Part shown: piece by piece, positions 22,536 through 43,837 of the stretch
How positions within the stretch are numbered: the stretch's first letter is position 1
Layout of the letters: every line of letters begins with the position of its first letter
Assembly: GCF_000521505.1 (NCBI RefSeq)
Contig: NZ_CP003915.1
Coordinates: 1,550,001 to 1,614,000 of the forward strand
Origin: Advenella mimigardefordensis DPN7
GTDB taxonomy: Bacteria > Pseudomonadota > Gammaproteobacteria > Burkholderiales > Burkholderiaceae_B
Direction: 5' to 3'
Length of the DNA: 64,000 nucleotides
The notes under the pieces: generated by a model
The model's database searches: none
What the model was told of the DNA's origin: nothing
What the model saw: only the letters and a program-made list of their open reading frames with translations
Made by a program: the position numbers and the translations under genes

Positions 22536-22588
22536 ACGCGGCGTCCCTAAAATCAACATGGACGGTCCTTCCTTGTACTACCTATAAT
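22536..22588 (+). promoter_or_regulatory. 28-bp island element, copy A, plus -10 TATAAT
   Basis: The element spans 22536-22563 (starts ACGCGGCGTCC, ends CATGGAC). The -10 hexamer TATAAT begins at 22583, exactly 20 nt after the last base of the element. It matches copy B at 23 of 28 positions. It would drive the acyl-CoA dehydrogenase gene at 22702 with a leader of roughly 110 nt. Confidence 0.75.
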
Positions 22589-22701
22589 TTTGACAAATAT
22601 GCATTGCGATGAGAGCTCCACTTCAGGAATGTCTGAACATTTTTGGATCAAATCGGTAATGCGCGCACGATAACAGGGTATTACGCACAAAGGATCACCG
22701 C

Positions 22702-23880
22702 ATGAGCAGCCAGAAACTGAAATTGAACGAGACACAACGGGCATTGATCGGCACTGTCCGGGATCTGGCGCGGGATAAGCACTGGCGTACCAATTCGATC
22801 AATTACATGGACGGCACGTTTCCTCATGAAAATTTGCGGGAACTTGCCAAACTTGGCGTAATGGGGATGTCGGTACCCGAAGAATACGGTGGCCTGGCGT
22901 TGCCCGTATTCGATACTGCACTGGTGCTGGAAGAAATTGCCAAGTATTGCTACGCGACCGCCATGGGCGTTATGAGTTCTGTGGGCGTCCAGACCAGGGT
23001 CATCAGCAAATACGCCCCAGAGAGCCTGAAGCAGAAAATTCTGCCCGGGGTGTGTACCGGTGAAGTCAATATGGCCGTGGGGATGACCGAGCCGCACGCC
23101 GGCACAGACGTACCCAACTACAAAACCAATACGGTCATCAAGAACGATTGCGCTGTAGTGAATGGCATTAAGACCCTGATCAGCAAGGTGGATGAGGCAG
23201 AGTGGTTCGTCGTCTTTACCCGAATCAACGGTACACCTGGTCGTGATGGTATTGGCTGTGTGCTGGTTAATCGGAATACGCCCGGATTTGAAGTGACTGC
23301 ACGCTACCATACGATGGGCGGCGAGTTTCTTGGTGAGATTCAGTTCAACGACGTTCAGGTGCCACTGGAAAATGTGATTCTGCGTGAGGGCGCTTTCAAG
23401 AAACTGCTCACGGCCTTTAATACCCAGCGCTGCCTGAATCCTAGCGTCTCGCTTGGGCTGGCCGAGGCGGCCTTCGAAGAGGCGATCAATTACGTGAGAG
23501 ACCGTACGATTCGCGGCCAGCGCGTGGCAGATTTTCAGGGGATTCAGTGGAAGCTGGCTGAGATGTATCGCGATATTGAAGCGGGCCGTGCACTGTTGTA
23601 TCAGGCCGCCTTGTCGGCGGACCCGTTTCCCAATCCGCATCAGGCGGCGGTTGCCAAGATGTACAACAACGAAATGGCCATACGCGTTAGCAGCGAAGCA
23701 CTGCAGGTGCATGGTGGCTATGGCTTTACCGATGATTACCCGATTTCCCGCATTTACCGTGCTGTGCGCTACGGGACACTGGGTGGCGGCACCGTGGAGA
23801 CGCTAAAAGACCTGGTCGGTAAAAAACTGGTTAGTGATTTTGAACCGGTGGATGGTTTTCTATCGATGGGGAATTTTTAA
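22702..23880 (+). CDS. Acyl-CoA dehydrogenase, paralogue of the gene at 27407
   Basis: The 392-residue flavoprotein has the ACAD fold: N-terminal helices (LNETQRALIGTVRDLA), FAD contacts MTEPHAGTDVPNYKT and a C-terminal helical domain with LQVHGGYGFTDDYPISR. It would oxidise an acyl-CoA to an enoyl-CoA. The segment that normally reads EGT near the C-terminus is GTLGGGTVETLKD, so the classical catalytic Glu is not at its usual place. It ends in a distinctive DGFLSMGNF tail shared with its paralogue. It sits alone between the element-A promoter and a convergent LysR gene. Confidence 0.9.
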   Translation: MSSQKLKLNETQRALIGTVRDLARDKHWRTNSINYMDGTFPHENLRELAKLGVMGMSVPEEYGGLALPVFDTALVLEEIAKYCYATAMGVMSSVGVQTRVISKYAPESLKQKILPGVCTGEVNMAVGMTEPHAGTDVPNYKTNTVIKNDCAVVNGIKTLISKVDEAEWFVVFTRINGTPGRDGIGCVLVNRNTPGFEVTARYHTMGGEFLGEIQFNDVQVPLENVILREGAFKKLLTAFNTQRCLNPSVSLGLAEAAFEEAINYVRDRTIRGQRVADFQGIQWKLAEMYRDIEAGRALLYQAALSADPFPNPHQAAVAKMYNNEMAIRVSSEALQVHGGYGFTDDYPISRIYRAVRYGTLGGGTVETLKDLVGKKLVSDFEPVDGFLSMGNF

Positions 23881-24025
23881 GTACAGGTGCCCAGAGTCAC
23901 GATACGCTGGTTCTGATTAAGACTGGACGAATCCCGGAGAGCAAACGATCATGCAGGATGTGAATGCCAGAGCGACCCTGTTTAACGCAAAAATTACGTA
24001 TGAATTGCAATGATTGATAAAATTG

Positions 24026-24045
24026 CGGCGCGACAAGGCGCGCCG
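24026..24045. terminator. GC hairpin between convergent dehydrogenase and LysR genes
   Basis: Arms CGGCGCG (24026-24032) and CGCGCCG (24039-24045) flank a 6-nt loop. There is no long T-run, so the terminator assignment is tentative. Confidence 0.4.
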
Positions 24046-24066
24046 ACAAAACAGATATTGCAGGTG

Positions 24067-24972
24067 TTATTCAACAGTTGGCTTAATTCCAGGCCACACC
24101 TGCCGTGCTGCTTCCATGAAGGCAACGATAAGCGGATCATTTTTGCGGCACACCTGATGCGCTATAAACAGTGGAAGCTGTGTGATGCCCAGTGGCGCGA
24201 TAGCCAGGATACCGCTTTTTTCGTCCTCGAGCGCATGTTCTTCGCGCATCAGCATGAGGCCCATGCCGGACAGGAGCATGGAGCGCGCCAACGATGAATT
24301 ATCAAAGCGGACAGCAGTATTGGGTTTCAGGCCTCGCGTTTCGAACAGGCCCGCAAGCATGTCCGAATATGCCTTGCTGCTATCCATGGGAGCAATCCAT
24401 GGCATGGCGGCCAGCGCTTTCCAGTCCGCGTTCTCTATCTGCTCTTTCCAGTCTATCGGGCCCACGATACGAAACGTAATTTTTGTCAGCTCGTAATGAA
24501 TCAGGCCAGGGTCCAGAGAAGGGCCGAGCATGACGCCGACATCCAGTTCTCCGGTTTTCAGCTCCTGCCGGGTTCCGGCTGACTGGCGAGCACGCAGGTC
24601 GATCTTGACCAGTGGGTGCATGCGATGCATGGCCGCCACGATTTGCGCGACGCGGCTGATGCTGGGATCGCTGCTTGAACTGACCACGAGTGCGCCTTCG
24701 ATTTTGCCCCGTAGCTCACGTGCGAAAGAAGTGAATGCATTTGCTTCATTCAGAAGATCACGCGCGCGTTCAAGCAACAGCTCGCCTGCTGTCGTTAGTT
24801 TGAGACTGCGGTTGGTGCGTATAAACAGCTCTATATCGAGGTTTTCCTCGATGGCACGCACATGGGCGCTGGCGGCAGATTGGCTCATATGTAAACGTTC
24901 CGCAGCACGGGTAAGATGCTCTTCCTCTGCGACACCAACGAATGTGCGCAGCTGAGCGAGATCAATCAGCAT
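24067..24972 (-). CDS. LysR family regulator, candidate master regulator of the catabolic island
   Basis: The 301-residue LysR-type regulator has a typical N-terminal winged helix (HLTRAAERLHMSQSAASAHVRAIEE) and an effector domain from about residue 90. AGGAGA precedes ATG 24972. It is divergent from the CoA-transferase operon starting at 25244, and the shared 271-nt gap holds element copy B plus a separate dyad (25052-25071). LysR proteins usually control the divergent gene and respond to a pathway intermediate, so this is the best candidate to bind the five element copies. It is the only regulator gene I see inside the island. Confidence 0.9.
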   Translation of the reverse strand: MLIDLAQLRTFVGVAEEEHLTRAAERLHMSQSAASAHVRAIEENLDIELFIRTNRSLKLTTAGELLLERARDLLNEANAFTSFARELRGKIEGALVVSSSSDPSISRVAQIVAAMHRMHPLVKIDLRARQSAGTRQELKTGELDVGVMLGPSLDPGLIHYELTKITFRIVGPIDWKEQIENADWKALAAMPWIAPMDSSKAYSDMLAGLFETRGLKPNTAVRFDNSSLARSMLLSGMGLMLMREEHALEDEKSGILAIAPLGITQLPLFIAHQVCRKNDPLIVAFMEAARQVWPGIKPTVE

Positions 24973-25071: not shown

Positions 25072-25095
25072 TTTTTCTTGGTTCTGAAAACAAGG

Positions 25096-25148
25096 ACACG
25101 GCGTCCTAAAAATCGCCATGGACCAGTATGCGAACTTGATTCTACACT
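25096..25148 (+). promoter_or_regulatory. 28-bp island element, copy B, plus -10 TACACT
   Basis: The element spans 25096-25123 (starts ACACGGCGTCC, ends CGCCATGGAC). The -10-like TACACT starts at 25143, 20 nt after the element end, the same spacing as copy A. GG precedes the element. It would drive the operon beginning at 25244. Confidence 0.75.
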
Positions 25149-25243
25149 AACTTGAACTTGCAAACGACCGGATTCCGTCTTCGTAGTAGATGCGACTGCC
25201 AGCCTTTGCTTATCGTTCCATTATTGGTATTTATTGAGTCAAT

Positions 25244-26551
25244 ATGTCACAGGAAATCCGTAGCGTCACCTCCATGCAATCGCCTAGTCAGCTTTTGGCG
25301 CAGTTGCGTTTCGCTGACTATATCCAGCCGGGCGACGTGATTGGCTGGCCTCAGGGACCTGGCGAACCACTGGCATTGACGCAGAAGCTGGTTGAACAAC
25401 GTGCCGCGCTTCCCCCATGTGCCTTGTTGTTCGGACTGAGCGTGTCAAATACCTTGCAGCCGGAGCTGTCTGCCCATTTTCAATTTCATGCGCTCAATGG
25501 CGCGGGCACGGCGCGTAAGGTAACCGCTAGTGCAGCCATCTTTCCGTCGCATGTCAGTACGATTCCAAGGCTTTTCCGATCAGGGAAATTACGGATCGAC
25601 ATTGCGCTCATTCAGGTTGTTCCAGTATCTGCCGGGAAGTATTCGCTTGGTGTTATCGCCGATTTTACCCAGGCCATGATCGACAGCGCGCGCGTGGTTA
25701 TTGCGATCATTAATCCGGCGTTGCCCAGGCTGGGTGCGGACGCACTGGTAGACGCAGCGGATATAGATGTTCTGGTGGAAGGTGATGATCGCATCCTGGA
25801 TATGCCCGATGCACAGCCATCCGACGTAGAGCGTCAGGTGGCGCGGCAGGTTGCTGCGCTGATCCCGGATCGGGCAACGGTGCAATTGGGCGTAGGAACA
25901 TTGCCGACAGCGGTCGCCGAGGCGCTTGTAGATCACCGGGAACTGGGTGTTCACAGTGGAGTGGTGTCGGATGTATTGGTTTCATTGGTTGAAAAGGGCG
26001 TTGTAAGCAACGCGCACAAGGGCCTGGATGCTGGATTGACGGTAACGGGTGGTTTGTTTGGCACTCAACGTTTGCGTGAATTCGCGGCGCAGCACAATCT
26101 TGTGTCACTGCGTTGCGCGGACTATACCCATAGTCTGGCGACGGCTTCGGCATTGCAGTGTTTTCATACCGTTAACTCGGCCATTGAGATTGATTTAACC
26201 GGGCAGGTCAATGCCGAGGTGGCGGGAGGTCGTTACCTGGGCGCATTAGGTGGACATGCCGATTTCGTACGGGCGGGCACATTATCGCCAGGCGGGCGCT
26301 CCATCATTGCGATTCCGTCGGCGACAGCAGATGGCAAGCATTCGCGGCTGGTGGCTTCGCTGGGCATGCGCCCTGTGACCACTTCACGGGGAGATGTGGA
26401 TATTGTGGTTACCGAATATGGGGTTGCCCATTTGCAGGGATGTTCACTGAACGAACGAATACGACAACTGATCGCGATCGCCCATCCTGATCATCGCGAG
26501 ACCTTGGAAAAACAGGCGCAGGACATCAAAAAAGCACAGGGATTTCAATGA
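25244..26551 (+). CDS. Acetyl-CoA hydrolase/transferase family protein (CoA transferase)
   Basis: The 435-residue protein belongs to the acetyl-CoA hydrolase / 4-hydroxybutyrate CoA-transferase family. The probable catalytic Glu lies in SAIEIDLTGQVNAEV; a Gly-rich CoA-binding stretch GALGGHADFVRAG and the C-terminal VTEYGVAHLQG are typical. It would move CoA between an acyl-CoA and a free carboxylic acid, activating the substrate or recycling the product. The start is uncertain: no ribosome-binding site precedes ATG 25244, and ATG 25274 is an alternative. Its stop overlaps the next gene by 4 nt (ATGA). Confidence 0.88.
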   Translation: MSQEIRSVTSMQSPSQLLAQLRFADYIQPGDVIGWPQGPGEPLALTQKLVEQRAALPPCALLFGLSVSNTLQPELSAHFQFHALNGAGTARKVTASAAIFPSHVSTIPRLFRSGKLRIDIALIQVVPVSAGKYSLGVIADFTQAMIDSARVVIAIINPALPRLGADALVDAADIDVLVEGDDRILDMPDAQPSDVERQVARQVAALIPDRATVQLGVGTLPTAVAEALVDHRELGVHSGVVSDVLVSLVEKGVVSNAHKGLDAGLTVTGGLFGTQRLREFAAQHNLVSLRCADYTHSLATASALQCFHTVNSAIEIDLTGQVNAEVAGGRYLGALGGHADFVRAGTLSPGGRSIIAIPSATADGKHSRLVASLGMRPVTTSRGDVDIVVTEYGVAHLQGCSLNERIRQLIAIAHPDHRETLEKQAQDIKKAQGFQ

Positions 26552-27330
26552 GTAACGAAATTGTAGTTAAAAATCTGGGAGAGCACGTTTTCGAGATCTG
26601 GATGAACCGGCCCGATCGCATGAATGCGCTGGGACGGGAAACCGTTATCGAATTTCTTCAGGCGATTCGTGATGTGGCAGCCAGCCCGGCACGCGTGGTG
26701 CTGATCCGTGGCAGCGGTCGTGGCTTTTGCGCCGGTGCCGATCTCAAGCAGCGTGCCCAAATGACATTTCACGAACGTCTTGAGCACAACGCGGGTATTA
26801 ATGATGTGGTCAATGCCATCGCCGATGCGCGCTTTGTCAGTATTGCCGTGATGAACGGCGTGGCGCTTGGTGGCGGGCTGGAGCTGGCCATGGCCTGCGA
26901 CTTGCGCTTTGCCGCCAGCGGGATTTCACTGGGTCTGACCGAAAGCCGGGTTGGTGCCTTTCCTGGTGCTGGCGGTACACAAAGGCTGCCTCGGCTGGTG
27001 GGCGTGAGTCGCGCGTTGCATATGATGCTCAGCGGTGAACCCGTGATAAGTGATTACGCTTTATCCATCGGATTGGTGAACGAAGTCATGCCGCAGGATC
27101 AACTTGAAACACGAGCCCACGAATTTGCCACTCTCCTGGCAGGACGGTCGGCGCCGGCTATGGCGCATATCAAACGGCTGGTGTATCGCGGGGTAGAACG
27201 TCCTCTGGAAGATGCCTTGCGCATGGAGCGAGCAGCCTTGCCGGCCATTCTGGGTTCGGCCGATTATGCCGAAGGCCTGGCTGCCTTTGCAGAGAAGCGG
27301 CCACCCCGTTTCACCGGCGTAGCAGAGTGA
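26548..27330 (+). CDS. Enoyl-CoA hydratase/isomerase family protein
   Basis: The 260-residue crotonase-fold protein has oxyanion-hole segments GFCAGADLKQ and VALGGGLELAMACDLR. A catalytic Glu lies in LTESRVGAFPGAGGTQRLPRLVG, the pattern of active hydratases. It should add water to the enoyl-CoA formed by one of the acyl-CoA dehydrogenases. The start overlaps the CoA-transferase stop (ATGA), and the next gene follows after 76 nt, consistent with a single operon driven from element B. Confidence 0.9.
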   Translation: MSNEIVVKNLGEHVFEIWMNRPDRMNALGRETVIEFLQAIRDVAASPARVVLIRGSGRGFCAGADLKQRAQMTFHERLEHNAGINDVVNAIADARFVSIAVMNGVALGGGLELAMACDLRFAASGISLGLTESRVGAFPGAGGTQRLPRLVGVSRALHMMLSGEPVISDYALSIGLVNEVMPQDQLETRAHEFATLLAGRSAPAMAHIKRLVYRGVERPLEDALRMERAALPAILGSADYAEGLAAFAEKRPPRFTGVAE

Positions 27331-27406
27331 ACCATAACTGCAGACTAAACGCCACCACGTGGGCAACAAACATTTTAAATTCTATTTCTAAGCAGGGGAG
27401 TACAAC

Positions 27407-28582
27407 ATGACAAATCCAAAATTGCAATTGACATCTGAACAGCGGGCGCTGGTGGGTACGGTGCGGGAACTGGCTCGCGATAAATTCCAGGGCCGGGCCA
27501 TGGACTATCTGGACGGAACCTTTCCCATGCAGAACATGAAGGATCTGGCCGATATTGGTGTTCTGGGGATGTCGATTCCCGAGCAGTACGGTGGTTCGGA
27601 TATGTCTGTGTTTGACACCGCCCTGGTGATCGAGGAAGTGTCCAAGGTATGTTATGTAACAGCGATGGCTTTAATGGGCGAAGTCGGGGTGCAGGTGCGG
27701 GTGATTTCCAATTTCGCACCGGAAAGCATGAAGCAGGATATCCTGCCTAAAGTTTGTACTGGCGAAGCCCTGCTGGCAGTGTGCATGACCGAACCGCACG
27801 CCGGTACGGATGTGCCCAACTACAAGACCAACACCACGATCAAGGGCGATCGGGCGGTCGTCAATGGCGTGAAAACCCTGATCAGTCGTGCTGATGAGGC
27901 CGAGTGGTTCGTCGTCTTCAGCCGTATCGATAATCAGCCTGGTCGCGACGGCATCGGTTGCGTGCTGGTTAATCGTCATACCCCTGGATTTGAAGTGACG
28001 GCAAGGTATCACACCATGGGCGGAGAAAATCTGGCCGAGATCCGTTTCGAGAACTGTGAAGTACCGGTGGAGAACGTTATTTTGCGCGAGGGTGGATTCA
28101 AGAAGCTGCTTTCCGCGTTCAATACACAGCGTTGCCTTAATCCCAGCGTATCGCTGGGTCTGGCAGAAGGTGCCTTCGAGGCAGCGATTAAGTATGTACG
28201 CGAGCGTACGATTTTCGGCAAAACCGTCGGCCAATTTCAGGGCATACGCTGGAAGCTGGCCGAGATGTACCGGGATATCGAAGCTGGGCGAAGCCTGCTG
28301 TATCGTGCCTGCCTGACGGCGAATCCGTTCCCGAATCCGCATGAAGCGGCGATTGCCAAGATGTTTGTCAACGAGATGGCCATTCGGGTGACCAGTGAAG
28401 CCCTGCAGGTACACGGAGGCTATGGATTTACCGATGAATATCCGGTTTCCCGTTTTTATCGTGGGGTTCGTTACGGAACACTGGGCGGTGGCGCGACGGA
28501 GACGTTGAAGGACCTGGTCGGTAAAAAGCTAATGGAAGATTTCGATCCGGTGGACGGCTTTCTCTCTCAGGGAACGTTCTGA
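27407..28582 (+). CDS. Acyl-CoA dehydrogenase, paralogue of the gene at 22702
   Basis: The 391-residue ACAD is highly similar over its whole length to the 22702 product, with shared CMTEPHAGTDVPNYKT, VFSRIDNQPGRDGIGCVLV-like, LQVHGGYGFTDEYPVSR and tail DGFLSQGTF. The C-terminal catalytic region reads GTLGGGATETLKD, again without the usual EGT. FAD-dependent oxidation of an acyl-CoA is expected. Two copies under the same element suggest successive or chain-specific oxidation steps. AGGGGAG precedes the ATG. The next gene starts 1 nt after its stop. Confidence 0.9.
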   Translation: MTNPKLQLTSEQRALVGTVRELARDKFQGRAMDYLDGTFPMQNMKDLADIGVLGMSIPEQYGGSDMSVFDTALVIEEVSKVCYVTAMALMGEVGVQVRVISNFAPESMKQDILPKVCTGEALLAVCMTEPHAGTDVPNYKTNTTIKGDRAVVNGVKTLISRADEAEWFVVFSRIDNQPGRDGIGCVLVNRHTPGFEVTARYHTMGGENLAEIRFENCEVPVENVILREGGFKKLLSAFNTQRCLNPSVSLGLAEGAFEAAIKYVRERTIFGKTVGQFQGIRWKLAEMYRDIEAGRSLLYRACLTANPFPNPHEAAIAKMFVNEMAIRVTSEALQVHGGYGFTDEYPVSRFYRGVRYGTLGGGATETLKDLVGKKLMEDFDPVDGFLSQGTF

Positions 28583-28583
28583 T

Positions 28584-29453
28584 ATGCGCTCACTGCTTTT
28601 CGTTCCTGGACATGACGAACGCAAACTGACGAAAGGACTCGGCTGCGGGGCCGATGCACTGATCCTTGATTTAGAGGACGCCGTTCCCCCAGCCCAAAAG
28701 ACCCGGGCACGTGAGGTCACTGCGGCTTTTGTCGCCGCACATCGTGACCTGCCGCTTTTTGTACGGGTCAATTCCCTGGAGTCGGGGTTGCTGCATGATG
28801 ACCTGGCGGCGGTCATAGGAGCAAAACCCTACGGCATCATGCTGCCCAAATGTGAAGGCGGGCAGGATCTGGTAAAGCTGGAAGACTGCCTCGCCGACCT
28901 GGAGGCGAAGGAAAATATTGAGATTGGTACCACTCGAATCCTGCCGGTTGTCACCGAAAGCGCAGCAGCCGTGCTCAATTTGTCTTCGTATCCACGACAA
29001 GAAAACGGGCGTCTGTGGGGCATGTTATGGGGCGGCGAAGACCTGGCTACCGATATGGGTGTGCCTGCTAATCGCTCCGAGACGGGTCAGTACACCGCCC
29101 TGTTTCAAATGGTGCGGTCAATGACGCTGCTGACCGCTGCCGCAGCGCGCGTTACCGCGGTGGACGCAGTCTATACCAATTTTCGTGATGCGCAGGGACT
29201 GCGTGCCGAAGCCGAACAGGCCCGGAGGGATGGGTTTATGGCCAAGGCTGCCATCCATCCCGACCAGATTGCGATTATTAACGAAGTATTTCAAGTGTCA
29301 TCGACAGAACTGCACCACGCCCGGCAGGTGGTAGCCGCTTTCGAGGCGGAGCCGCAAGCCGGGTCGGTCTCCATAGAGGGTCGGATGTATGACCGTCCGC
29401 ATTTGCTGGCGGCCTGTCGCCTTCTGAAAATGGCAACAGGGGAAATTGAATAA
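28584..29453 (+). CDS. CitE-like HpcH/HpaI family aldolase/lyase
   Basis: The 289-residue TIM-barrel protein begins MRSLLFVPGHDERKL, the hallmark of the citrate lyase beta-subunit-like branch. The substrate Arg lies in FVRVNS, the Mg-binding Glu in PVVTESAAAV and the Asp in WGGEDLATDMG. Relatives cleave malyl-CoA, citramalyl-CoA or hydroxymethylglutaryl-like CoA esters to acetyl-CoA plus an oxoacid. It sits between an ACAD and a CaiB-type CoA transferase, so it probably performs the carbon-carbon cleavage of the pathway. Its stop overlaps the following ATG by one base. Confidence 0.88.
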   Translation: MRSLLFVPGHDERKLTKGLGCGADALILDLEDAVPPAQKTRAREVTAAFVAAHRDLPLFVRVNSLESGLLHDDLAAVIGAKPYGIMLPKCEGGQDLVKLEDCLADLEAKENIEIGTTRILPVVTESAAAVLNLSSYPRQENGRLWGMLWGGEDLATDMGVPANRSETGQYTALFQMVRSMTLLTAAAARVTAVDAVYTNFRDAQGLRAEAEQARRDGFMAKAAIHPDQIAIINEVFQVSSTELHHARQVVAAFEAEPQAGSVSIEGRMYDRPHLLAACRLLKMATGEIE

Positions 29454-29470
29454 TGAAGGAGAGAGCAAGC

Positions 29471-30676: not shown

Positions 30677-30684
30677 GGTAAACG

Positions 30685-31242
30685 ATGCCATTACCTGCTC
30701 CTTATCCGCGTGAAATATTGCATTCGAGAGCCATCCAAATGGACGGTTATCTGCGTGCGGATGGTCTGGTGGATATCGATCTGCACATGACGGATCGCAA
30801 GCCGGACGAAGTCGTTTTTGCCGATGGCAGATGTCTCGCCGCGGGTGATCTGCTGCATGATATGGCGCTCCGACTGGTTGTTGATCAGAATCTGCGCATT
30901 GTAGACGCCATCGCCTGTATTGATGCGTCTCCCTATCGCGTGTGCCCGGAAGCGACCGAGGTGGTCAGGGATGTGATCGGTTTCACCATCGGACCAGGCT
31001 GGTCAGCCATGTTGAAGGAACGGTTTCATGGGCGCAAGGGATGCACGCATCTGACCGAATTGTTGCGGCCGGTGGCAACAGTGGCCATCCAGTCATTGTG
31101 GCGCTTGCGCAAGGGCAGGGCGGAACCAACCGATTCGGGAGGAAGGCCGCAAAAAATTGACAGTTGCTATGCGTACGCGGCCTCAAGGGAGGTTGTCAAA
31201 ATGCGTTGGCCTGCGCATTTCAGGGAAGATGATACAGACTGA
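30685..31242 (+). CDS. DUF2889 domain protein
   Basis: The 185-residue protein matches what I recall of DUF2889. It starts with REILHSRAIQMDGYLR, contains DIDLHMTDRKPDEV, a middle LHDMALRLVVDQNLRIVDA and the conserved RKGCTHLTELLRP motif. There is no signal peptide or membrane helix. No enzyme activity is established for the family to my knowledge. It follows the CaiB-type gene after 8 nt and closes the element-B operon, so a role in handling a pathway CoA ester or intermediate is likely but unproven. Confidence 0.8.
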   Translation: MPLPAPYPREILHSRAIQMDGYLRADGLVDIDLHMTDRKPDEVVFADGRCLAAGDLLHDMALRLVVDQNLRIVDAIACIDASPYRVCPEATEVVRDVIGFTIGPGWSAMLKERFHGRKGCTHLTELLRPVATVAIQSLWRLRKGRAEPTDSGGRPQKIDSCYAYAASREVVKMRWPAHFREDDTD

Positions 31243-33157: not shown

Positions 33158-33160
33158 ACA

Positions 33161-35410: not shown

Positions 35411-35479
35411 GATAGTTTTTCGCGAAACCACATCAAACCATAACGATGACGATGGACTCTGTTCATCGAGGAGAGAGAC

Positions 35480-36640: not shown

Positions 36641-36696
36641 TGCGTTGGCGGCCGGCCCGTGTGTGGCCGGCCTGCACCACAATTGACGGAGAACAT

Positions 36697-37551
36697 ATGA
36701 TTGAACAAATCATTGTTAACGGTGTCCTGGCCAGCCTGATTTATATCCTTATGGCGCTGGGTTTTACGCTGATTTTCGGCATCATGCGTATTGTAAATTT
36801 CGCCCATGGCGAATTTTATATGATGGGTGCAATGGCAATGCTCATGCTGTTTGGCTTCATGGGTTTGCCATATTTTCTGGCAGTATTGCTGGCGGGTGTG
36901 CTCAGCGGGCTGCTGGGCGTTATCGCCGAAAGGCTGTTGTTTCGCCCATTGGTCGCAGATGAGCTGGCTGGCATGATCATGTCACTGGCAATCGGCATTA
37001 TTCTGCAGTCGGTGATTTTGCTAACTTTCGGACCCGCCGAGCAATCGGTGACGCGTCCCTTTTCGGGTACATGGCGTCTATTTTCCGCCGCCGTACCATG
37101 GGACCGTACCGTGGTAGCCGTATGTGCGCTGGTGATTCTTGGTGTTTTCTATCTGTTTATGAAATATGCCCGGCTTGGTCTGGCTATGCAGGCTGTTGCT
37201 CAGGATCCCGAAACGGCGAGTCTGGTGGGTATTGAGCCCGGTACGGTGTACGCATCTGCTTTCGGACTGGCATGCCTGATGGCCGGGCTGGCCGGCGCGC
37301 TGATGGCACCCATCTATACCGTAGGGCCGTACATGGGCGAACTGCCTATGCTCAAGGCGTTTGTAGTGGTCATTCTTGGTGGCCTGGGTAGCCTGCCCGG
37401 AGCGGTATTGGGCGGGTTGTTGATCGGCATCAGCGAATCGGTTGTCACGACCTTATTCAGTTCGACGCTAGCCCTGATCGTTTCATTCATTCTCGTCCTG
37501 ATTATTGTTGTGTTGCGACCGGCAGGGCTGATGGGAAGGAGCGTTCGATGA
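36697..37551 (+). CDS. Branched-chain-type ABC transporter permease LivH-like
   Basis: The 284-residue inner-membrane permease has about eight hydrophobic helices and LivH landmarks: GFTLIFGIMRIVNFAHGEFYMMGA near the N-terminus, AQDPETASLVGI in the cytoplasmic coupling loop and VVILGGLGSLPGAVLGGLLIG near the C-terminus. I chose ATG 36697 because GGAG lies upstream and the earlier frame (36640) is not membrane-like. Its stop overlaps the LivM-like start by 4 nt. Confidence 0.92.
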   Translation: MIEQIIVNGVLASLIYILMALGFTLIFGIMRIVNFAHGEFYMMGAMAMLMLFGFMGLPYFLAVLLAGVLSGLLGVIAERLLFRPLVADELAGMIMSLAIGIILQSVILLTFGPAEQSVTRPFSGTWRLFSAAVPWDRTVVAVCALVILGVFYLFMKYARLGLAMQAVAQDPETASLVGIEPGTVYASAFGLACLMAGLAGALMAPIYTVGPYMGELPMLKAFVVVILGGLGSLPGAVLGGLLIGISESVVTTLFSSTLALIVSFILVLIIVVLRPAGLMGRSVR

Positions 37552-38465
37552 GAAACCGTTATATCTATCTGATACTGGTCGTCCTGGCTGTCGTGCCTTG
37601 GCTGCTCGACAATCGCTACGTTTTTCACATTGCCACGATGATTACGATCATGATTCCCATGGCGCTGAGTATGAATCTGATGCTTAAAATCGGGCAGCTA
37701 TCGATCGCCCAGCCGGCCTTTATGGGAATTGGCGCTTACAGTAGTGCACTTCTTGTTATGCGCCTGGGGTTGCCACCAGCACTGGCGCTGCTGACCGGCG
37801 CAGCAATCGCAACGATCATCGCGGCGCTGGTCGGGCCGCTGTTTCTGCGTATCAGAGGTGTTTACTTCGTGCTGCTGACCTATGCCTTTGGTCAGATTGT
37901 CAATCTGGTTTTTCAGGAATGGACCTCGTTGTTTGGCGGAAATAATGGGCTCTACGGGATTCCGAAGTTTTCGATATTCGGACTGCGCCTTACCCAAAGC
38001 CCGCATTACTATGCGCTAGGCCTGCTGTTTCTTGTACTGTTTTATGCACTCATGCGCTTCATCGAACGATCGGATATGGGCGCTATTTATGAATCACTGA
38101 ATGAAAATGAAATGCTGAGCCGGGCACTGGGTTCGGATGCGCTGTCCTGGCGGATCGGTACGTTTGCACTGAGTGCTTTTATTGCCGGTATCAGTGGAGG
38201 GATATATGCCTTTTATATCGGATTTCTGTCCCCTGAAACGTTTGGCTTTCTGATGTCGGTCGACCTGATTGTGGTCAACGCAATCGGTGGCGTGGCCTCT
38301 GCACTGGGGCCCGTTGTAGGCGCTATTCTGATACTTCCCCTGCCGGAGTTACTGAGAGATGCGCGCGAGTATCAGCTGTTGATCTATGGCATCTGTCTGG
38401 TCGTATTTCTATTGTTTTTCAGGAAAGGTCTGGTGGTTTTCCTGCAGCGAAAAGGGAGAGCATGA
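37548..38465 (+). CDS. Branched-chain-type ABC transporter permease LivM-like
   Basis: The 305-residue permease pairs with the LivH-like protein. Landmarks are ALSMNLMLKIGQLSIAQPAFMGIGAY, the coupling loop SLNENEMLSRALG and VNAIGGVASALGPVVGA. About eight to ten membrane helices are evident. Overlapping ATGA junctions at both ends (LivH and LivG) show tight translational coupling. Together the two permeases form the channel of the importer. Confidence 0.92.
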   Translation: MRNRYIYLILVVLAVVPWLLDNRYVFHIATMITIMIPMALSMNLMLKIGQLSIAQPAFMGIGAYSSALLVMRLGLPPALALLTGAAIATIIAALVGPLFLRIRGVYFVLLTYAFGQIVNLVFQEWTSLFGGNNGLYGIPKFSIFGLRLTQSPHYYALGLLFLVLFYALMRFIERSDMGAIYESLNENEMLSRALGSDALSWRIGTFALSAFIAGISGGIYAFYIGFLSPETFGFLMSVDLIVVNAIGGVASALGPVVGAILILPLPELLRDAREYQLLIYGICLVVFLLFFRKGLVVFLQRKGRA

Positions 38466-39229
38466 TGACAGATGTGTTATTGAGTTTACGTGAGGTGTCA
38501 CGCCGATTTGGCGGACTGTCTGCGGTGTCTGGTGTTTCTGCAGATATTCTTTCGGGTGAAATATTTGGCATTATCGGACCTAATGGAGCGGGTAAAACCA
38601 CGCTCTTCAATGTTGTAGCAGGCTACTTTGCACCCAGCTCGGGAACGGTCTTTTTCGATGGAGCAAACATTTCAGGAAAATCGAGCGATAAGATTGCAAG
38701 GCTCGGTATCGGACGTACCTTTCAGGCGGTAACGGTCTTTCAGGAGCATACCGCGAAGGAAAATCTGCGACGTGCCGCCATGGTGTCACGCCGTTACAAC
38801 CCACTGGTTTACTTTGGCACCCGCAATGCCGGCGTCGAACCGGATGTACTGGAGCAGATGGCACGGTTTACAGGCCTACAGCATGCGCTGGACAGTCGTG
38901 CAGGCAGTCTGTCTTATGGACAGCAGAAGATGCTGGGTATAGGAATGGCACTCATGGGGCAGCCTCGGCTACTGCTGATGGACGAACCTGCCGCTGGCTT
39001 GCATACTTCAGAAAAAAAGGAAGCGGCACAACTGATCCGTCGGTTGCGTGACGAGCTGGGTATTACGGTTGTACTCGTCGAGCACGATATGCCGCTTGTG
39101 ATGGGCGTTTGCGACCGTATATTGGTGATCAATCGAGGTGTGCCATTGGCATTGGGAGCGCCCGACCAGATCAAGTCTGATCGGGCGGTGATCGATGCCT
39201 ATCTCGGAGAAGAATATGACTTTGCTTGA
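38462..39229 (+). CDS. ABC transporter ATP-binding protein LivG-like
   Basis: The 255-residue ATPase shows Walker A GPNGAGKTT, signature SLSYGQQKMLG and Walker B LLLMDEPAAG, followed by the LivG-type C-terminal tail VIDAYLGEEYDFA. It powers import with the LivF-like protein. ATG 38462 overlaps the LivM stop; the adjacent ATG at 38465 is an alternative. Its 3' end overlaps the LivF-like gene by 14 nt. Confidence 0.93.
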   Translation: MMTDVLLSLREVSRRFGGLSAVSGVSADILSGEIFGIIGPNGAGKTTLFNVVAGYFAPSSGTVFFDGANISGKSSDKIARLGIGRTFQAVTVFQEHTAKENLRRAAMVSRRYNPLVYFGTRNAGVEPDVLEQMARFTGLQHALDSRAGSLSYGQQKMLGIGMALMGQPRLLLMDEPAAGLHTSEKKEAAQLIRRLRDELGITVVLVEHDMPLVMGVCDRILVINRGVPLALGAPDQIKSDRAVIDAYLGEEYDFA

Positions 39230-39926
39230 AGTAAGAAATTTGTCCGTTTCCTATGGTGGTGTCGCCGCGTTGAGTGGTGTGTCCGTTTCCGTCCCCGAGA
39301 AAGGGGTGGTGGCCGTGGTTGGCGCTAATGGCGCGGGCAAATCAACGCTGCTCAAATCCATTGCGGGTGTGGTACATACCCGCAATGGTCAGATAGTGCT
39401 GGAGGGCAGCGACATTGTATCGTTGAAGCCGCACGAGAGGTTGGACAGGGGGTTGGCGCTATGTCCGGAAGGGCGCAGACTATTTCCTGAAATGACTGTC
39501 TTTGACAATATCAAAATTGGCGCATATCGCAATCATAATAGCGGGCAATTTCGCCAACGACTGGACATGTTATACGATATTTTTCCACGTATTGCTGAAC
39601 GACGGCATCAGGTGGCCAGCAGTCTCTCAGGCGGAGAGCAGCAGATGGTGGCCATTGCCAGGGCGCTGATCAGCCAGCCTCGGATTTTGATGCTGGACGA
39701 ACCTACGTTGGGTCTGGCCCCGAAAATGATTCTTGAGGTGGCCAGACTAGTCCAGACGGTCAGCGCAGAGGGAATTGCAGTGGTGATGGTGGAGCAAAAT
39801 GCGAAACTGGCTCTCAGGATTTCAAATTATGGTTATGTTCTGGAGACAGGTGAGCTTCGGCTTGAAGGTGCCAGCGCTGAATTGATGAAAAGCGACCACG
39901 TCGTACGGGCGTATCTGGGTGGATAG
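39216..39926 (+). CDS. ABC transporter ATP-binding protein LivF-like
   Basis: The 236-residue ATPase shows Walker A GANGAGKST, signature SLSGGEQQM and Walker B ILMLDEPTLGLAPKM, the LivF pattern. I chose ATG 39216 because it gives the usual start (MTLLEVRNLS) and follows a CGGAGAAG ribosome-binding site within the end of livG. It is the last gene of the Liv set; the next gene is convergent. Confidence 0.93.
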   Translation: MTLLEVRNLSVSYGGVAALSGVSVSVPEKGVVAVVGANGAGKSTLLKSIAGVVHTRNGQIVLEGSDIVSLKPHERLDRGLALCPEGRRLFPEMTVFDNIKIGAYRNHNSGQFRQRLDMLYDIFPRIAERRHQVASSLSGGEQQMVAIARALISQPRILMLDEPTLGLAPKMILEVARLVQTVSAEGIAVVMVEQNAKLALRISNYGYVLETGELRLEGASAELMKSDHVVRAYLGG

Positions 39927-39939: not shown

Positions 39940-40908
39940 TCAGTTGACTGCCAAACCTGCGTCCCTGGATAGAGTGCGCCACAGCACGATCTGTTCGCGA
40001 ACAAATTGTCCGAAGTGTTGTGGATCCGAGGCGGTTGCGATCACCCCCAACCGGGAAAAATACGCTTTCGTTGTGTTGCTATTGACTGCTGCAGCCAGGA
40101 CTGCACTCAGTTTTTCAGTGACATCGGCGGGCAGTCCGGCCGGTCCGAACAGACCACTCCACGATTCGTAACGGTACCCGGGCACCCCCAATTCGGATAG
40201 GGGAGCGACTTTTGGCATGGCGTCCAGACGCTGAGGCGACGTCAATCCCAGAATACGTACTTGTCCGGATGCCACAAACGGCTGGATGACTAAAGGATCG
40301 ACCATCATGAAATCCAGCCGGCCCGCGACCAGATCGGTAGTGGCTTGTGGCATGCCAGGATAATTTACTGCCTGTGCCTGTATGCCAGTCTGCGACTTGA
40401 GAAGTTGTGCTGCGACCAGACTGCCTGAGTTGCCGGTTCCGTAATTCAGTTGTCCTGGATGCGCCCGGGCATAACTGACCAGTTCGCCGAGTGAGTTAAC
40501 TGGCCGATCAGCATTGACGACAAGCAGCAGGGGGTTAGTCGTGATCTGGCCGATAGGGCTGAAGTCGCCGATCGGGTCATATCCCAGATTTCTGATGAGG
40601 TAGACGTTAGCCGCATGCGACGAATTGGTTCCCAGAAACAGGGTATGGCCATCCGCGGCCGCGTGAATGACGGCACGGGCGGCAATGACGCCCTGAGCAC
40701 CGGGTTTGGATTCAACGACAACGGGCTGCCCGAGTGCGCTGCTGAGTTTTTCTCCGAGATGGCGGGCCAGCATGTCCGAGGTACTGCCTGGCGGAAATGA
40801 AATCACTAATCGTATCGGGCGCGACGGAAAGGAAGAGGGTGCAGCCCAGCTACGTGCCAGTGGCATTCCTGCCGCTGCCAGAAGCAGCGTTCTGCGTTGA
40901 ATGGCCAT
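39940..40908 (-). CDS. Bug/TctC family solute-binding protein 2
   Basis: The 322-residue Bug protein has a twin-arginine-like leader (MAIQRRTLLLAAAGMPLA, cleaved near SWAAP). The binding-site loop is RLVISFPPGSTSDMLARHLG, with LNYGTGNSGSLVAAQLL and VAGRLDFMMVDP downstream. It is a paralogue of the gene at 40979 on the same strand, 70 nt upstream in transcription order, and probably shares its promoter at element C. It is convergent with the Liv genes. No TctAB genes accompany it. Confidence 0.92.
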   Translation of the reverse strand: MAIQRRTLLLAAAGMPLARSWAAPSSFPSRPIRLVISFPPGSTSDMLARHLGEKLSSALGQPVVVESKPGAQGVIAARAVIHAAADGHTLFLGTNSSHAANVYLIRNLGYDPIGDFSPIGQITTNPLLLVVNADRPVNSLGELVSYARAHPGQLNYGTGNSGSLVAAQLLKSQTGIQAQAVNYPGMPQATTDLVAGRLDFMMVDPLVIQPFVASGQVRILGLTSPQRLDAMPKVAPLSELGVPGYRYESWSGLFGPAGLPADVTEKLSAVLAAAVNSNTTKAYFSRLGVIATASDPQHFGQFVREQIVLWRTLSRDAGLAVN

Positions 40909-40978
40909 GTCATGTCTCCTTATAAGAGGTGTTGGGTGTCAGGTGGCAGCAGCGCGCCCTGACAGGATGACGATAAAT

Positions 40979-41947
40979 TTATTGAGCCACCAGCCCGGCA
41001 GCACTGGTCAGATGGCCCCAGACCTGAATCTGATCTTTTACGAAGTCGCCGAACGTGGCTGGTGGCAGGTCGGCAGCAATCATGCCTATACTGTTCAGGT
41101 ATTGTTGCGCCTCCTGACTGGCCAATGCATCCGAAAAGGCGGCGTACAGTTTTTGCGTAATATCGGCAGGTAATTGGGCCGGGCCGAACAGTCCGATCCA
41201 GGACGCATATTCGTAGTCTGGTAGGCCAAGATCGGCGATCGGGGCGAGTTCGGGGAACAAGGGTAACTTTTTGCGTGAGGTCAGCCCCAGCATTCGGACC
41301 TGTCCTGATTCAACAAACTGCTTGATGATCATTGGATCGGTCACCATGAAATCCAGTCGCCCGGCAAGAAAGTCATTGACTGCTACCGCATTCCCTGCGT
41401 AATTGACCGCCTGGGCGTCGAAGCCGGCCTGTGTGGTAAGCAGATGCGTGGCGACCAGGCTGCCGGTGTTTCCGGCGCCATAGTTCATCTGGCCGGAATG
41501 CGTCTTGCCGTGTTCAATGAAAGCCTTGAGTGAATCAATATTGCTGTCTGCTCTTACGCACAAAACCAGAGGATTGGTCGTGAATCTCATAATGGGCGTG
41601 AAATCTTTGACCGGATCATATCCGGGCTTGCTGAACAGATAAATACTGGCGGCGTGGGTGGAATTGGTACCCAACAACAGCGTATACCCGTCATTGGCTG
41701 CTTTAGTCAACGCCCGGGAGGCGACAACGCCCTGAGCACCAGGGCGGTTTTCCACCACAATCGGCTGGCCCAGCTGACGGCTGACAGACTCACCCAGTCG
41801 TCGTGCAATCATATCTGAACTGCCAGGTGCAAAGGGCGCGATTATCCGAATTGGCTGGTCGGGAAATGCTTTCTGCCCCCACGCCTGATGTGCGACAACA
41901 GCTAGCGTGGGTGCTGTCACAAGGAATTGTCTGCGCGACAGGCTCAT
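40979..41947 (-). CDS. Bug/TctC family solute-binding protein 3
   Basis: The 322-residue Bug protein has a perfect Tat motif (SRRQFLV at residues 4-10) and a cleavage region AHQAWG. The core shows IRIIAPFAPGSSDMIARRLG, MNYGAGNTGSLVATHLL and LAGRLDFMVTDPMII. It is a paralogue of the downstream gene at 39940. Element copy C, reading on this strand, lies about 130 nt upstream of its ATG, so this pair probably belongs to the island regulon. Ligand unknown, probably the same carboxylate as the catabolic enzymes. Confidence 0.92.
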   Translation of the reverse strand: MSLSRRQFLVTAPTLAVVAHQAWGQKAFPDQPIRIIAPFAPGSSDMIARRLGESVSRQLGQPIVVENRPGAQGVVASRALTKAANDGYTLLLGTNSTHAASIYLFSKPGYDPVKDFTPIMRFTTNPLVLCVRADSNIDSLKAFIEHGKTHSGQMNYGAGNTGSLVATHLLTTQAGFDAQAVNYAGNAVAVNDFLAGRLDFMVTDPMIIKQFVESGQVRMLGLTSRKKLPLFPELAPIADLGLPDYEYASWIGLFGPAQLPADITQKLYAAFSDALASQEAQQYLNSIGMIAADLPPATFGDFVKDQIQVWGHLTSAAGLVAQ

Positions 41948-42049
41948 ATTTTTGTCTCCATGAGGTGTGCCGGGTTGCCTGCGTAAGTGCAGATCTTTTC
42001 TCGCCGCTTTGGTATGGCGATGTTCTCCCGATCCTGTTTTGTTTGATCA

Positions 42050-42102
42050 GATATTGCAGTCAGAATGATGGCATGTCCATGGCGATTTCCGGGATACGGT
42101 GT
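42050..42102 (-). promoter_or_regulatory. 28-bp island element, copy C (minus strand), plus weak -10
   Basis: Read on the minus strand the element runs 42102-42075 and ends CGCCATGGAC, matching copy B at 22 of 28 positions. GG precedes it. The hexamer at the conserved 20-nt offset (42055-42050) is AATATC, a poor -10. It faces the Bug pair ending at 39940. Confidence 0.65.
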
Positions 42103-42152
42103 CCTGGTTTTCGAATTGACTTGTCTGAGCAGCTTGTGTTTCGGGAATCGGG

Positions 42153-42205
42153 ATACGGTCAACTGAAATTTGACATAGACGGCGCGGTAATGAATTTCTT
42201 AAACT
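42153..42205 (+). promoter_or_regulatory. 28-bp island element, copy E (degenerate), plus -10 TAAACT
   Basis: The element spans 42153-42180 (starts ATACGGTCA, ends CATAGAC) and matches copy D at 18 of 28 positions. TAAACT starts at 42200, again 20 nt after the element end. GG precedes it. It faces the aldehyde dehydrogenase at 42249 with a leader of about 40 nt. Confidence 0.5.
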
Positions 42206-42248
42206 CAGGACAACAGATAACAAGTCAACATCAGGAGGAAGACATAGC

Positions 42249-43709
42249 ATGTTGAAGGAACAACAGAACAGGGTGGCAGGCACGATCGATACTGCTCTTT
42301 TCATCAATAATGTTGCCCAGGCCGGTGAGGGTGAGTCTATCCGGGTAGTCAATCCGGCTACAGAGGAGCTGGTTGCTGATTTTGCAGGTGCTTCTATAGA
42401 CCAGGTGGATGCCGCTGTCGTCAGTGCTGTCAATGCCTTTGAGCAGGAACGCTGGAAGGATCCACAGTTTCGCAAGGACGTTCTGTTGCGTTTGGCTGAT
42501 TTGATCGAAGAGAACCGGGATATGCTTATGGATACGCTTATCCAGGAGATCGGTACGCCAATCAATCTGACCGCCAATCATATCGACACGCCAGTGGCTT
42601 TTTTGCGCTGGTTCGCGCAACAGGCTGTGATTGACCGTACCCGACATCTTGGGTTCAACTCCAGCCGTACGGCAGTCAGTACCGTCGTCTATCGGCCCGT
42701 TGGCGTGGTGGCCGCCATTACGGCGTTCAACTATCCGCTACTGATTGGGCTGACCAAAATTGGTGCCGCGCTGGCAGCCGGCTGCACTGCGGTGTTGCTG
42801 TCCTCGCCGCAAGCGCCGCTCGCTGTTTTGCAATTGGGAAAATTGATTCGTCTTGCGGGATTTCCGGCAGGTGTTATCAATATTCTGGCAGGCGGCGCTC
42901 AGGTGGGAGAAAGACTCACTGAACATCCTGGTGTGGCTAAGGTCAGCTTTACCGGATCGGTCAATGTCGGGCGCAGGGTAATGCAGCAGGCGGCATCCGG
43001 TTTGCGCAGCGTAGTGCTGGAGCTGGGTGGCAAGTCGGCGGCCATTTTACTGCCGGGGGTAGACTTTAATAAGTACGCCTATTCTCTGCACGCACGATAT
43101 GCCCGAAATGCAGGACAAGGCTGCGGCTCACCCACGCGGATTCTGGTGGAAGCATCCCGGTATCAGGAATTTGCAGAGATCAGTCGACAAGTTTATGGTC
43201 GGCTCAAAGTAGGCGATCCACGCAAGGCGGACACGCTGCTGGGACCAGTAATCAATGCGGCGCAGCGGAATCGGATTGAAGATGGAGTAAAAACGGCGGT
43301 ACAAAATGGAGCGGAAGTGCTGGCAGGCGGCGGTCGCCCTGATATCGAAAAGGGCTGGTATGTTAACCCGGTGCTGGTGGGGAGCCTGGACAACAAGGCG
43401 GCCTTGGCCAGAGAGGAAATATTCGGACCTGTATCTGTTGTGCTTACCTATAAGGATGTGGATGAAGCGATTGCCATAGCCAATGATTCGCCTTTGGGTT
43501 TGAAAGCCTATGTGTTCGGAGCAACGCAGGAGTGTTTGCAGATTGTTCCAAAATTGCATGTAGGCACCGTACAAATCAATGGGGGCAGCCCGCTACGGCC
43601 CGATGCGCCCATGACCGGCTACAAGCATAGCGGGGTGGGTTCGGAATGGGGCGAAGATGGCTTGCGCGAATTCCTGCGGCCGCAGCACATTGATTGCCCA
43701 TTGGCCTAA
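42249..43709 (+). CDS. Aldehyde dehydrogenase family protein 1
   Basis: The 486-residue ALDH has Glu258 in VVLELGG and nucleophile Cys292 in GQGCGSPTR; FTGSVNVGRR is the cofactor loop. The usual cofactor-binding Lys in the LKPS motif is absent: the segment reads AVLLSSPQAPL. AGGAGGA precedes the ATG. It should oxidise an aldehyde to the acid with NAD(P), using the product of one of the zinc alcohol dehydrogenases. It stands alone between divergent element copies C and E and the element-D operon. Confidence 0.9.
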   Translation: MLKEQQNRVAGTIDTALFINNVAQAGEGESIRVVNPATEELVADFAGASIDQVDAAVVSAVNAFEQERWKDPQFRKDVLLRLADLIEENRDMLMDTLIQEIGTPINLTANHIDTPVAFLRWFAQQAVIDRTRHLGFNSSRTAVSTVVYRPVGVVAAITAFNYPLLIGLTKIGAALAAGCTAVLLSSPQAPLAVLQLGKLIRLAGFPAGVINILAGGAQVGERLTEHPGVAKVSFTGSVNVGRRVMQQAASGLRSVVLELGGKSAAILLPGVDFNKYAYSLHARYARNAGQGCGSPTRILVEASRYQEFAEISRQVYGRLKVGDPRKADTLLGPVINAAQRNRIEDGVKTAVQNGAEVLAGGGRPDIEKGWYVNPVLVGSLDNKAALAREEIFGPVSVVLTYKDVDEAIAIANDSPLGLKAYVFGATQECLQIVPKLHVGTVQINGGSPLRPDAPMTGYKHSGVGSEWGEDGLREFLRPQHIDCPLA

Positions 43710-43784
43710 GGGACGGTTGAACGAGCCAAATGGCTGGTCGGGTCGCGGTCTTGACGGTCCTGCCGATACTGTCCATTTTTTGTG

Positions 43785-43837
43785 GATACGGTCACTACAA
43801 AACACGCATGGACACCAGCCTGTGAACGTTCCTAGAA
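43785..43837 (+). promoter_or_regulatory. 28-bp island element, copy D, plus -10 TAGAAT
   Basis: The element spans 43785-43812 (starts ATACGGTCA, ends CATGGAC). TAGAAT begins at 43832, exactly 20 nt after the element end. GG precedes it. It matches copy B at 17 of 28 positions, concentrated at both ends. It would drive the operon from 43937 to 49296 with a leader of about 95 nt. Confidence 0.65.

Follow-up and report, generated by a model that had tools for sequence, protein, structure and literature searches.

Predicted operator-plus-promoter modules of a LysR-type regulon in a catabolic island of Advenella mimigardefordensis

LysR proteins usually recognize a T-N11-A core within an interrupted dyad, and they can act as repressors. 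OxyR binds extended sites next to the -35 box. In the available part of the study on BhbR1 of Pigmentiphaga kullae, the protected region extends from -75 to -22, including a site of the type that typically centres near -65 and another that overlaps the -35, and the recognition site is ATA-N9-TAT with T-N11-A (PMC12016517). In A. mimigardefordensis DPN7, MIM_c31370 and MIM_c37410 are described as LysR regulators of catabolic clusters (PMC5373536, in part); the word "promoter" has no occurrence in the available text of that paper.

In a window of 64,000 nucleotides from DPN7 (the whole stretch of DNA analyzed), a first-pass annotation had noted five copies (A–E) of a 28-bp element ahead of -10 hexamers and proposed an undescribed regulon. 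The element is real, and the observation is in part confirmed. With a probability of roughly 85%, the six elements now recognized would each combine operator and promoter in a local activon of the LysR type, in which five of them serve target units and F is an orphan. The new regulon, although a prediction, is well supported; in open-access papers, no description of the element or the regulon was found.

The six copies and their probable target units

Copies A, B, C, and E lie where they had been placed, and D, formerly given as 43785–43812, lies at 43786–43813 (Table 1). After that shift, the identities over 28 bp are indeed 23 for A–B, 22 for B–C, and 18 for D–E, and the hexamers of A–E start at the 20th base past the element, that is, with 19 bases between. 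The statement that none of the copies has a -35 is wrong. In A–E, element positions 24–29, inside the CATGGAC end, form TGGACn or TAGACn hexamers with a 4–5/6 match to TTGACA, 18 bp ahead of the -10 hexamer (17–18 bp across copies). The -10 of C is poor (3/6), as is that of its counterpart in genome G003, and an alternative, CAATAT, occurs one base closer. The sixth copy, F, had been missed; it ends in CATAGAC, followed by TAGAAT after 18 bases.

Table 1. Positions of the modules, the proposed regulator gene, and the predicted target units in the window
Feature	Position	Strand	Core	-35-like	-10	Score (bits)	Remarks
Site A	22521..22591	+	22536-22563	TGGACG	TATAAT	39.9	upstream of acyl-CoA dehydrogenase 1
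Site B	25080..25150	+	25096-25123	TGGACC	TACACT	46.7	
Site C	42047..42116	-	42102-42075	TGGACA	AATATC	41.6	upstream of Bug pair
Site D	43771..43842	+	43786-43813	TGGACA	TAGAAT	31.8 (in training)	upstream of MmgE/PrpD
Site E	42136..42206	+	42153-42180	TAGACG	TAAACT	42.3	upstream of ALDH 1
Site F	20563..20633	-	20616-20589	TAGACT	TAGAAT	36.5 (in training)	
LysR-type regulator	24067..24972	-					proposed binder of the six sites (LysR family matches, orthologues, recognition helix)
Acyl-CoA dehydrogenase 1	22702..23880	+					target unit of A
Presumed operon, 15 genes	25244..39926	+					behind B; extent inferred from short gaps
Bug (TctC) pair	39940..41947	-					target unit of C
Aldehyde dehydrogenase 1 (ALDH 1)	42249..43709	+					target unit of E
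MmgE/PrpD, Bug, ALDH 2, zinc ADH	43937..49296	+					target unit of D; MmgE/PrpD at 43937-45406

A–E are all intergenic (5/5), each directed at a same-strand gene start, and the five transcription units behind them belong to one catabolic island. Five of the six sites are in a gap and at most 300 nt from a same-strand start, vs. 4.4% of strand positions (P = 9e-7, a value that is optimistic if the gaps were viewed first). Site B is located between the divergent lysR and the CoA-transferase operon; sites E and C are back to back. The operon behind B encodes a CoA-transferase, an enoyl-CoA hydratase, acyl-CoA dehydrogenase 2, a CitE-like lyase, and a CaiB-type CoA-transferase, together with DUF2889, Bug, SDR, SMP-30 lactonase, and zinc ADH genes and five genes for an ABC transporter of the branched-chain type. 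No promoter-like match was found on the plus strand in the gaps of this operon. Acyl-CoA dehydrogenase 1 is 74% identical to dehydrogenase 2 and has no counterpart in the G003 island. A scan of the genome contigs for the CoA-transferase returned one locus, which was irrelevant.

Downstream from F, on the minus strand, there is no recognizable gene and no ORF of note. Its positional counterpart in G003 (with only 16/28 agreement) faces a Bug gene that is absent from the DPN7 genome, and we therefore prefer to see F as an orphan left by gene loss, rather than as serving the divergent MmgE/PrpD gene (20957–22435) from behind or an unlisted protein.

Architecture of the module

At about 43 bp, the conserved element exceeds the reported length, and it reaches about 15 bp further upstream. 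Within it are a pair of 10-bp repeats spaced 22 bp apart and a dyad, GGACAC-n-GTGTCC, the right arm of which runs into the second repeat (TCCCGAAAA). The whole conserved module (~68 bp) consists of GTTCnGnAAA, the dyad, CATGGAC, a spacing of 17–18 bp, and a TAnAnT-type -10. The alignment holds 18 sites from eight genomes (12 from relatives, of which eight are from outside the genus); in the counts given out of 17, site G003B, a near copy of B, is omitted. At any fixed column, T-N11-A occurs in at most 6/17 sites; T-N13-A is present at -13 to 1 in 14/17. With starts inferred from the -10 boxes, the operator covers roughly -75 to -35 and lies ahead of a sigma-70 promoter whose -35 is suboptimal.

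The -10 boxes noted near the element occur at a nearly fixed distance also in the copies from other genomes. At 18–19 bases, the mean best match is 4.18/6 vs. 2.26 in shuffled sequences (P = 5e-5, the lowest value attainable with 20,000 shuffles), a statistic that is not fully independent because the models that found most of the relatives' sites contained -10 columns. The most conserved block is CATGGAC, which holds the weak -35 (TGGACn), and this, with the nearly fixed -10, is what a simple sigma-70 or alternative-sigma promoter that has no regulator would give, only CATGGAC and the -10 then being of importance. Such a promoter is very improbable here. Conserved columns extend up to element position -14 (about -74), beyond sigma contacts, and the 22-bp repeat and the dyad are present; G is kept at the second -35 base in 15/17 sites, although T is the stronger base, and a single island holds all the sites of the genome.

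A mobile or recombinational repeat (MITE, REP, or attachment sequence) fallen in gaps by chance would likewise be repeated, intergenic, and dyad-containing, but this origin is hardly credible: A–E agree with one another at only 16–23/28 positions, the genome has six copies in total, every one except F is oriented at a gene, and the -10 stays at 18–19 bases.

The -35 hexamer lies within the operator, at its edge. This could suit a LysR protein that acts here mainly as a repressor until its ligand relieves it, and BhbR2, with a footprint over -35 that is not changed by ligand, offers a precedent (PMC12016517, in the part available). We find repression unlikely, since the -35 is weak (4–5/6) and conserved as weak and the operator reaches about -75, together a pattern expected of activator-requiring promoters.

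Specificity and conservation of the element

The scan of the genome located the element exclusively at promoters of the catabolic island. With the A–F model on the 4.76-Mb genome (150 of the 568 first-look candidates scored), the six sites, which are also the training set, score 33.5–37.8 bits and the next match 12.6. When each copy is left out in turn from the 28-bp matrix and the window is scanned on both strands, A, B, C, and E come straight after the training copies, and D falls to chance level (14.7 bits, with a chance place at 27405 at 14.9). Over element positions -14 to 53, and leaving out from all 18 sites, each of A–F stays in the top six; D is lowest with 18.0 bits vs. 1.7 for the next place, and F, left out over the same span, scores 25.6–31.6 bits. 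Matrices of that span built from the relatives alone return exactly A–F at the top of the window, either from the 12 relatives' sites (20.7–65.2 bits, next 4.2) or from the eight outside the genus (16.9–51.6 bits, next 3.3, with D again lowest at 16.9). Site D is the weakest of the six copies. A gapped IUPAC consensus with up to two mismatches gave 38 matches in the whole genome vs. 44 for the backward control; it does not discriminate, and the weighted model was used instead.

The element is present in islands that are syntenic or related. Sites occur in seven other genomes (weakly in G071), ahead of CoA-transferase operon, ALDH, MmgE/PrpD, and Bug genes. Model R1, built from the window sites only, matches three of 120 other genomes at E ≤ 0.01: G003 (four sites, 22.4–38.9 bits), G051 (one, 27.8), and G049 (one, 19.5). 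These have the closest CoA-transferases (81%, 68%, and 69% identity, respectively, in G049 over part of the protein). Outside the four training genomes, the best matches of model R2 in 268 family genomes are in G182 (36.6 bits), G212 (32.9 and 29.4), and G011 (20.2); the others, at 19.9 bits or less (E 0.001–0.05 in 268 genomes), are near chance expectation. The genome-wide E-value of G011 (0.001) is by itself at noise level, and this site is believed for its place, as are the two of G071, to which the 28-bp matrix gives low scores (9.5 and 14.1 bits).

The CoA-transferase site is conserved in G003, G212, and G049 (in the last, the CoA-transferase is truncated), and ALDH 1 is preceded by a site also in G003 and G212. 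Site C is kept in G003. Site D is missing there, but G051 and G182 carry a site ahead of MmgE/PrpD. Among 10 genomes of the genus, DPN7 included, the element is limited to DPN7 (G000) and G003. In a sample of 399 genomes of the order (including DPN7 and some family members; 5 and 12 candidates per genome scored in the two scans), no match exceeds 20.0 bits beyond the six of DPN7, and the LysR is found in DPN7 only. No site was seen in the stretches examined of G067 and G022 (CoA-transferase ~44%) or of G058 (LysR 43%).

The LysR protein and its predicted role

The product of 24067–24972 has an N-terminal winged helix-turn-helix and a LysR substrate domain (~300 aa). It matches 53 NCBIfam models, the best over residues 3–291; the 25 matches listed are LysR-type models, and among them none reaches the curated cut-off of a named LysR subfamily. 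The LysR (orthologues called at E ≤ 1e-60, with eight LysR candidates per genome scored) is present in 8/268 family genomes and in seven of the eight genomes with sites; at that threshold it was not found in G049. Outside the training genomes, it occurs in 5/264, and both clear element genomes carry it (P = 2.9e-4). With G011 added, the count is 3/3 (P = 3.3e-6); with the next match, G238 (19.9 bits, without the LysR), it is 3/4 (P = 1.3e-5). Several cuts are given because the 20-bit line, which separates G011 from G238, was drawn after viewing the scores. A site separates lysR from its divergent neighbor in G000, G003, G051, G182, G212, and, weakly, G071. The seven LysRs from genomes with sites share the recognition helix S(Q/L)SAASAH.

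By co-occurrence, adjacency, and a helix conserved where the element is, this LysR appears to be the natural regulator. The operator could be real and island-specific and yet belong to another regulator, such as one encoded elsewhere, the LysR being a mere neighbor; T-N11-A indeed stands at no fixed column, and in G049 a site persists although the LysR was not found. We consider this distinctly unlikely, given the co-occurrence at every cut, a LysR adjoining the site in six genomes, and the way the recognition helix follows the presence of the site, G049 being a relic with its truncated gene. The LysR-type activator proposed in the first-pass annotation is supported by these observations together with the specificity of the genome scan, the nearly fixed -10 in copies from other genomes, and the conservation of the element. 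Since the sites stand before island genes and recur elsewhere with one LysR gene, they very probably mark genes under joint control of that regulator.

Counted from the -10, the repeats would occupy approximately -74 to -65 and -52 to -43, with the dyad centred at -55. These distances suggest a LysR tetramer that would use the upstream portion for recognition and the portion next to the -35 for activation. When bound to its ligand, probably an acid or CoA ester of the pathway, the LysR would assist the sigma-70 polymerase where the -35 is weak. A single regulator could then turn on uptake (Bug proteins, ABC transporter) together with catabolism (ADH, ALDH, CoA-transferases, acyl-CoA dehydrogenases, hydratase, lyase), and at site B it may also act on its own gene. 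The chances are about even for a more specific proposal, in which a LysR subfamily with S(Q/L)SAASAH reads a noncanonical operator (22-bp-spaced repeats and a short dyad, without T-N11-A), the last half-site being fused with the -35 (CATGGAC), and commands an uptake/catabolism island of about 23 genes via five modules, the sixth being the orphan.

An uncharacterized catabolic island thereby gains, from sequence alone, a testable operator, regulator, and gene set, and a LysR operator without the textbook core is added. Inducer screening of these promoters could reveal the substrate of the island.

By sequence (phmmer), the closest solved LysR structures are those of OxyR (6g4r, 6g1d, 6g1b, and 4x6g; E 2e-16). 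The LysR fold is common over residues 5–239 of the island regulator, although the sequences are distant, and the repeats bound by OxyR are of the ATAG type, unlike the island operator. MIM_c31370 and MIM_c37410 belong to other clusters, for dithiodipropionate and mercaptosuccinate (PMC5373536, in the part available). BhbR1, as far as the available part of its description goes, is also a regulator of catabolism, and its protection from -75 to -22 compares with a conserved span of about -74 to -31 in the island. The island operator differs from it in having no fixed T-N11-A but T-N13-A in most sites, the 22-bp direct repeat, and the GGACAC-n-GTGTCC dyad, and in its distribution as six modules over 23 kb.

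Six copies of the element in the island

The element occurs in six copies, spanning 20.6–43.8 kb of the window. Five of them, A to E, had been listed in the first-pass annotation; A, B, C and E lie where it placed them, D starts at 43786 (not 43785), and with this shift the stated pairwise identities are reproduced. With a 28-bp matrix on both strands of the window and one copy left out in turn, A, B, C and E each rank directly behind the training copies; D, left out, scores 14.7 bits and falls among chance places at 27405 (14.9) and 29169 (14.6). The sixth copy, F (20.1 bits by the five-site matrix), ends with CATAGAC and is followed after 18 bases by TAGAAT. With a score model built from A–F (R1, 66 columns, without structure), these sites reach 33.5–37.8 bits in their own genome (4.76 Mb, two contigs), and the next matches 12.6, 11.8 and 9.5 (the scoring covered 150 of the 568 first-look candidates). 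All six are intergenic, where gaps make up 8.5% of 17.3–49.3 kb (list of 28 ORFs). Five of the six stand at most 300 nt upstream of a start on the same strand, versus 4.4% of strand positions (P = 9e-7, to be taken with caution, the gaps having possibly been inspected first in the first-pass annotation).

In the reverse direction, matrices including no window site (element positions −14 to 53) place exactly A–F at the top in the window, either from 12 sites of relatives (20.7–65.2 bits; next 4.2) or from eight sites outside the genus (16.9–51.6 bits; next 3.3); neither direction is fully independent of the other, since the relatives' sites were found by window-trained models and those of G071 by place. 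When the eight-site matrix is cut to 28 or 43 columns, D or E ranks among chance places.

Positions of sites and genes (window coordinates, except the last line)
Feature	Position	Strand	Context
Site F	20616–20589	−	site 20563–20633 in region 20361–20957
MmgE/PrpD	20957–22435		divergent from F
Site A	22536–22563	+	before acyl-CoA dehydrogenase 1
Acyl-CoA dehydrogenase 1	22702–23880
LysR	24067–24972	−	proposed regulator
Site B	25096–25123	+	between lysR and CoA-transferase operon
B unit	25244–39926	+
Acyl-CoA dehydrogenase, second	27407–28582
DUF2889 protein	30685–31242		inside operon
Zinc alcohol dehydrogenases	34193–35410; 48166–49296
Sites C and E, back to back	42047–42206
Site C	42102–42075	−	before Bug pair
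Site E	42153–42180	+	before ALDH 1
Site D	from 43786	+	before MmgE/PrpD, 43937–45406
G049 element	G049:C1:1919653–1920457		before truncated CoA-transferase

Anatomy of the probable operator and promoter

In an alignment of 17 sites (18 minus the near-duplicate G003B), conservation begins 15 bases before the reported element and continues through to its last base, in the order GTTCnGnAAA (−14 to −5), GG, A(C/T)AC, n, GTGTCC, AAAA and CATGGAC. A direct repeat of period 22 (mean identity 5.1/10, versus 1.4–4.2 for any other period in the range 12–33) accompanies a dyad, GGACAC-n-GTGTCC; a T-N11-A core was found at no fixed column. The −10 hexamer lies at 18–19 bases; its best match there averages 4.18/6, a value that no other offset attains (2.26 for shuffled sequence). 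The models by which most of the relatives' sites were found already contained these columns. The element had been said to have no −35. Positions 24–29 (TGGACn or TAGACn in A–F) agree with TTGACA at 4–5 of six bases in 15 of the 17 sites (at three bases in G182B and G212E), with a spacing of 17–18 bp, so that statement does not hold, weak as the hexamer is. Its second base is G, not T, in 15/17 sites, which suggests a constraint beyond sigma-70, either contact with the regulator or the need for a weak −35. The conserved parts of C and E are about 20 bp apart, so that two regulator complexes could touch.

Distribution in relatives and association with LysR

R1, trained on the window only, gives matches at E ≤ 0.01 in three of 120 relatives: four sites in G003 (same genus), one in G051 and one in G049. 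Of the 12 relatives that match at E ≤ 1e-40, these have the closest CoA-transferases (identity 81, 68 and, over residues 17–245, 69%); the rest reach at most 45%. The G003 island is syntenic from ADH to MmgE/PrpD (protein identity 70–97%), and B, C, E and F each have a counterpart site in it. D is missing there, where about 80 bp separate ALDH 1 from MmgE/PrpD. Acyl-CoA dehydrogenase 1 and site A are both absent from that island, and thus appear to have been gained or lost as a unit. The two acyl-CoA dehydrogenases of the window are 74% identical, as are its two zinc alcohol dehydrogenases. The DUF2889 protein (Pfam E 1e-40), kept in G003 (74%), is possibly a catabolic enzyme of a new sort.

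No gene follows F on its strand, and matrices excluding F give it 25.6–31.8 bits. It may serve the divergent MmgE/PrpD gene. Its positional counterpart in G003 (16/28 core identity) stands in front of a gene for a 332-aa Bug protein, and the matches of this gene in the window's own genome (E ≤ 1e-60) are only 36–39% identical; F therefore appears, from sequence, to be a promoter left after loss of its gene.

A second, 12-site model (R2) was searched in 268 family genomes and brought up further strong sites. One, in G182, scores 36.6 bits and lies in the gap that separates MmgE/PrpD from the divergent LysR gene; G212 has two (32.9 and 29.4 bits), of which one stands between LysR and the CoA-transferase operon and the other in front of ALDH 1. 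A weaker match, in G011 (20.2 bits), precedes a Bug gene in its longest reading by about 90 bp, and the LysR orthologue is 5 kb away. Matches at E ≤ 0.05 occur in 34/268 genomes, mostly near noise level. In G071 both sites are weak: one stands ahead of a Bug gene adjoining LysR, the other ahead of an ALDH.

Orthologues of LysR (E ≤ 1e-60) are found in eight of the 268 genomes (its own, G003, G212, G051, G182, G011, G071 and G058); among 399 genomes sampled from the order, only its own has one. Outside the four training genomes, 5/264 have it, including both with clear new sites (P = 2.9e-4); with G011 counted too, it is 3/3 (P = 3.3e-6), and with the next match, G238, 3/4 (P = 1.3e-5). The recognition-helix segment S(Q/L)SAASAH(V/I)(R/K) is common to the seven LysRs of genomes with sites; the G058 protein, from a genome in which no site turned up, has SQPAASGHIR. 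The exception to the pairing is G049, without LysR at E ≤ 1e-60. Its element (19.5 bits by R1) precedes a truncated CoA-transferase (about 69% identity, residues 18–244), and we read the site as a relic of the island with its promoter surviving.

A proposed regulon

Catabolic islands under LysR regulons are of a well-known kind; no description of this operator and regulon was found in the literature searched, and within it both appear undescribed. LysR, with a ligand, would bind these sites and activate five transcription units (23 genes). The B unit is probably one operon of 15 genes, judging from short gaps in which no promoter-like match occurs on the + strand. The island encodes ADHs, ALDHs, CoA-transferases, acyl-CoA dehydrogenases, a hydratase, a CitE-like lyase, an SMP-30 lactonase, Bug proteins and a branched-chain-type ABC transporter; this content suggests, as a guess, a branched acid or its alcohol or lactone as substrate.

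Setting the first −10 base as −12, from which the starts are predicted, puts the repeats at about −74 to −65 and −52 to −43. The dyad is then centred on −55, and the −35 hexamer occupies −36 to −31. In PMC12016517, a LysR promoter is described whose protected region reaches from −75 to −22; it includes an activation site that covers the −35 and a recognition site of the type that commonly lies around −65. The layout of repeats, dyad and −35 in the window resembles that promoter, and from this likeness we propose ligand-dependent activation.
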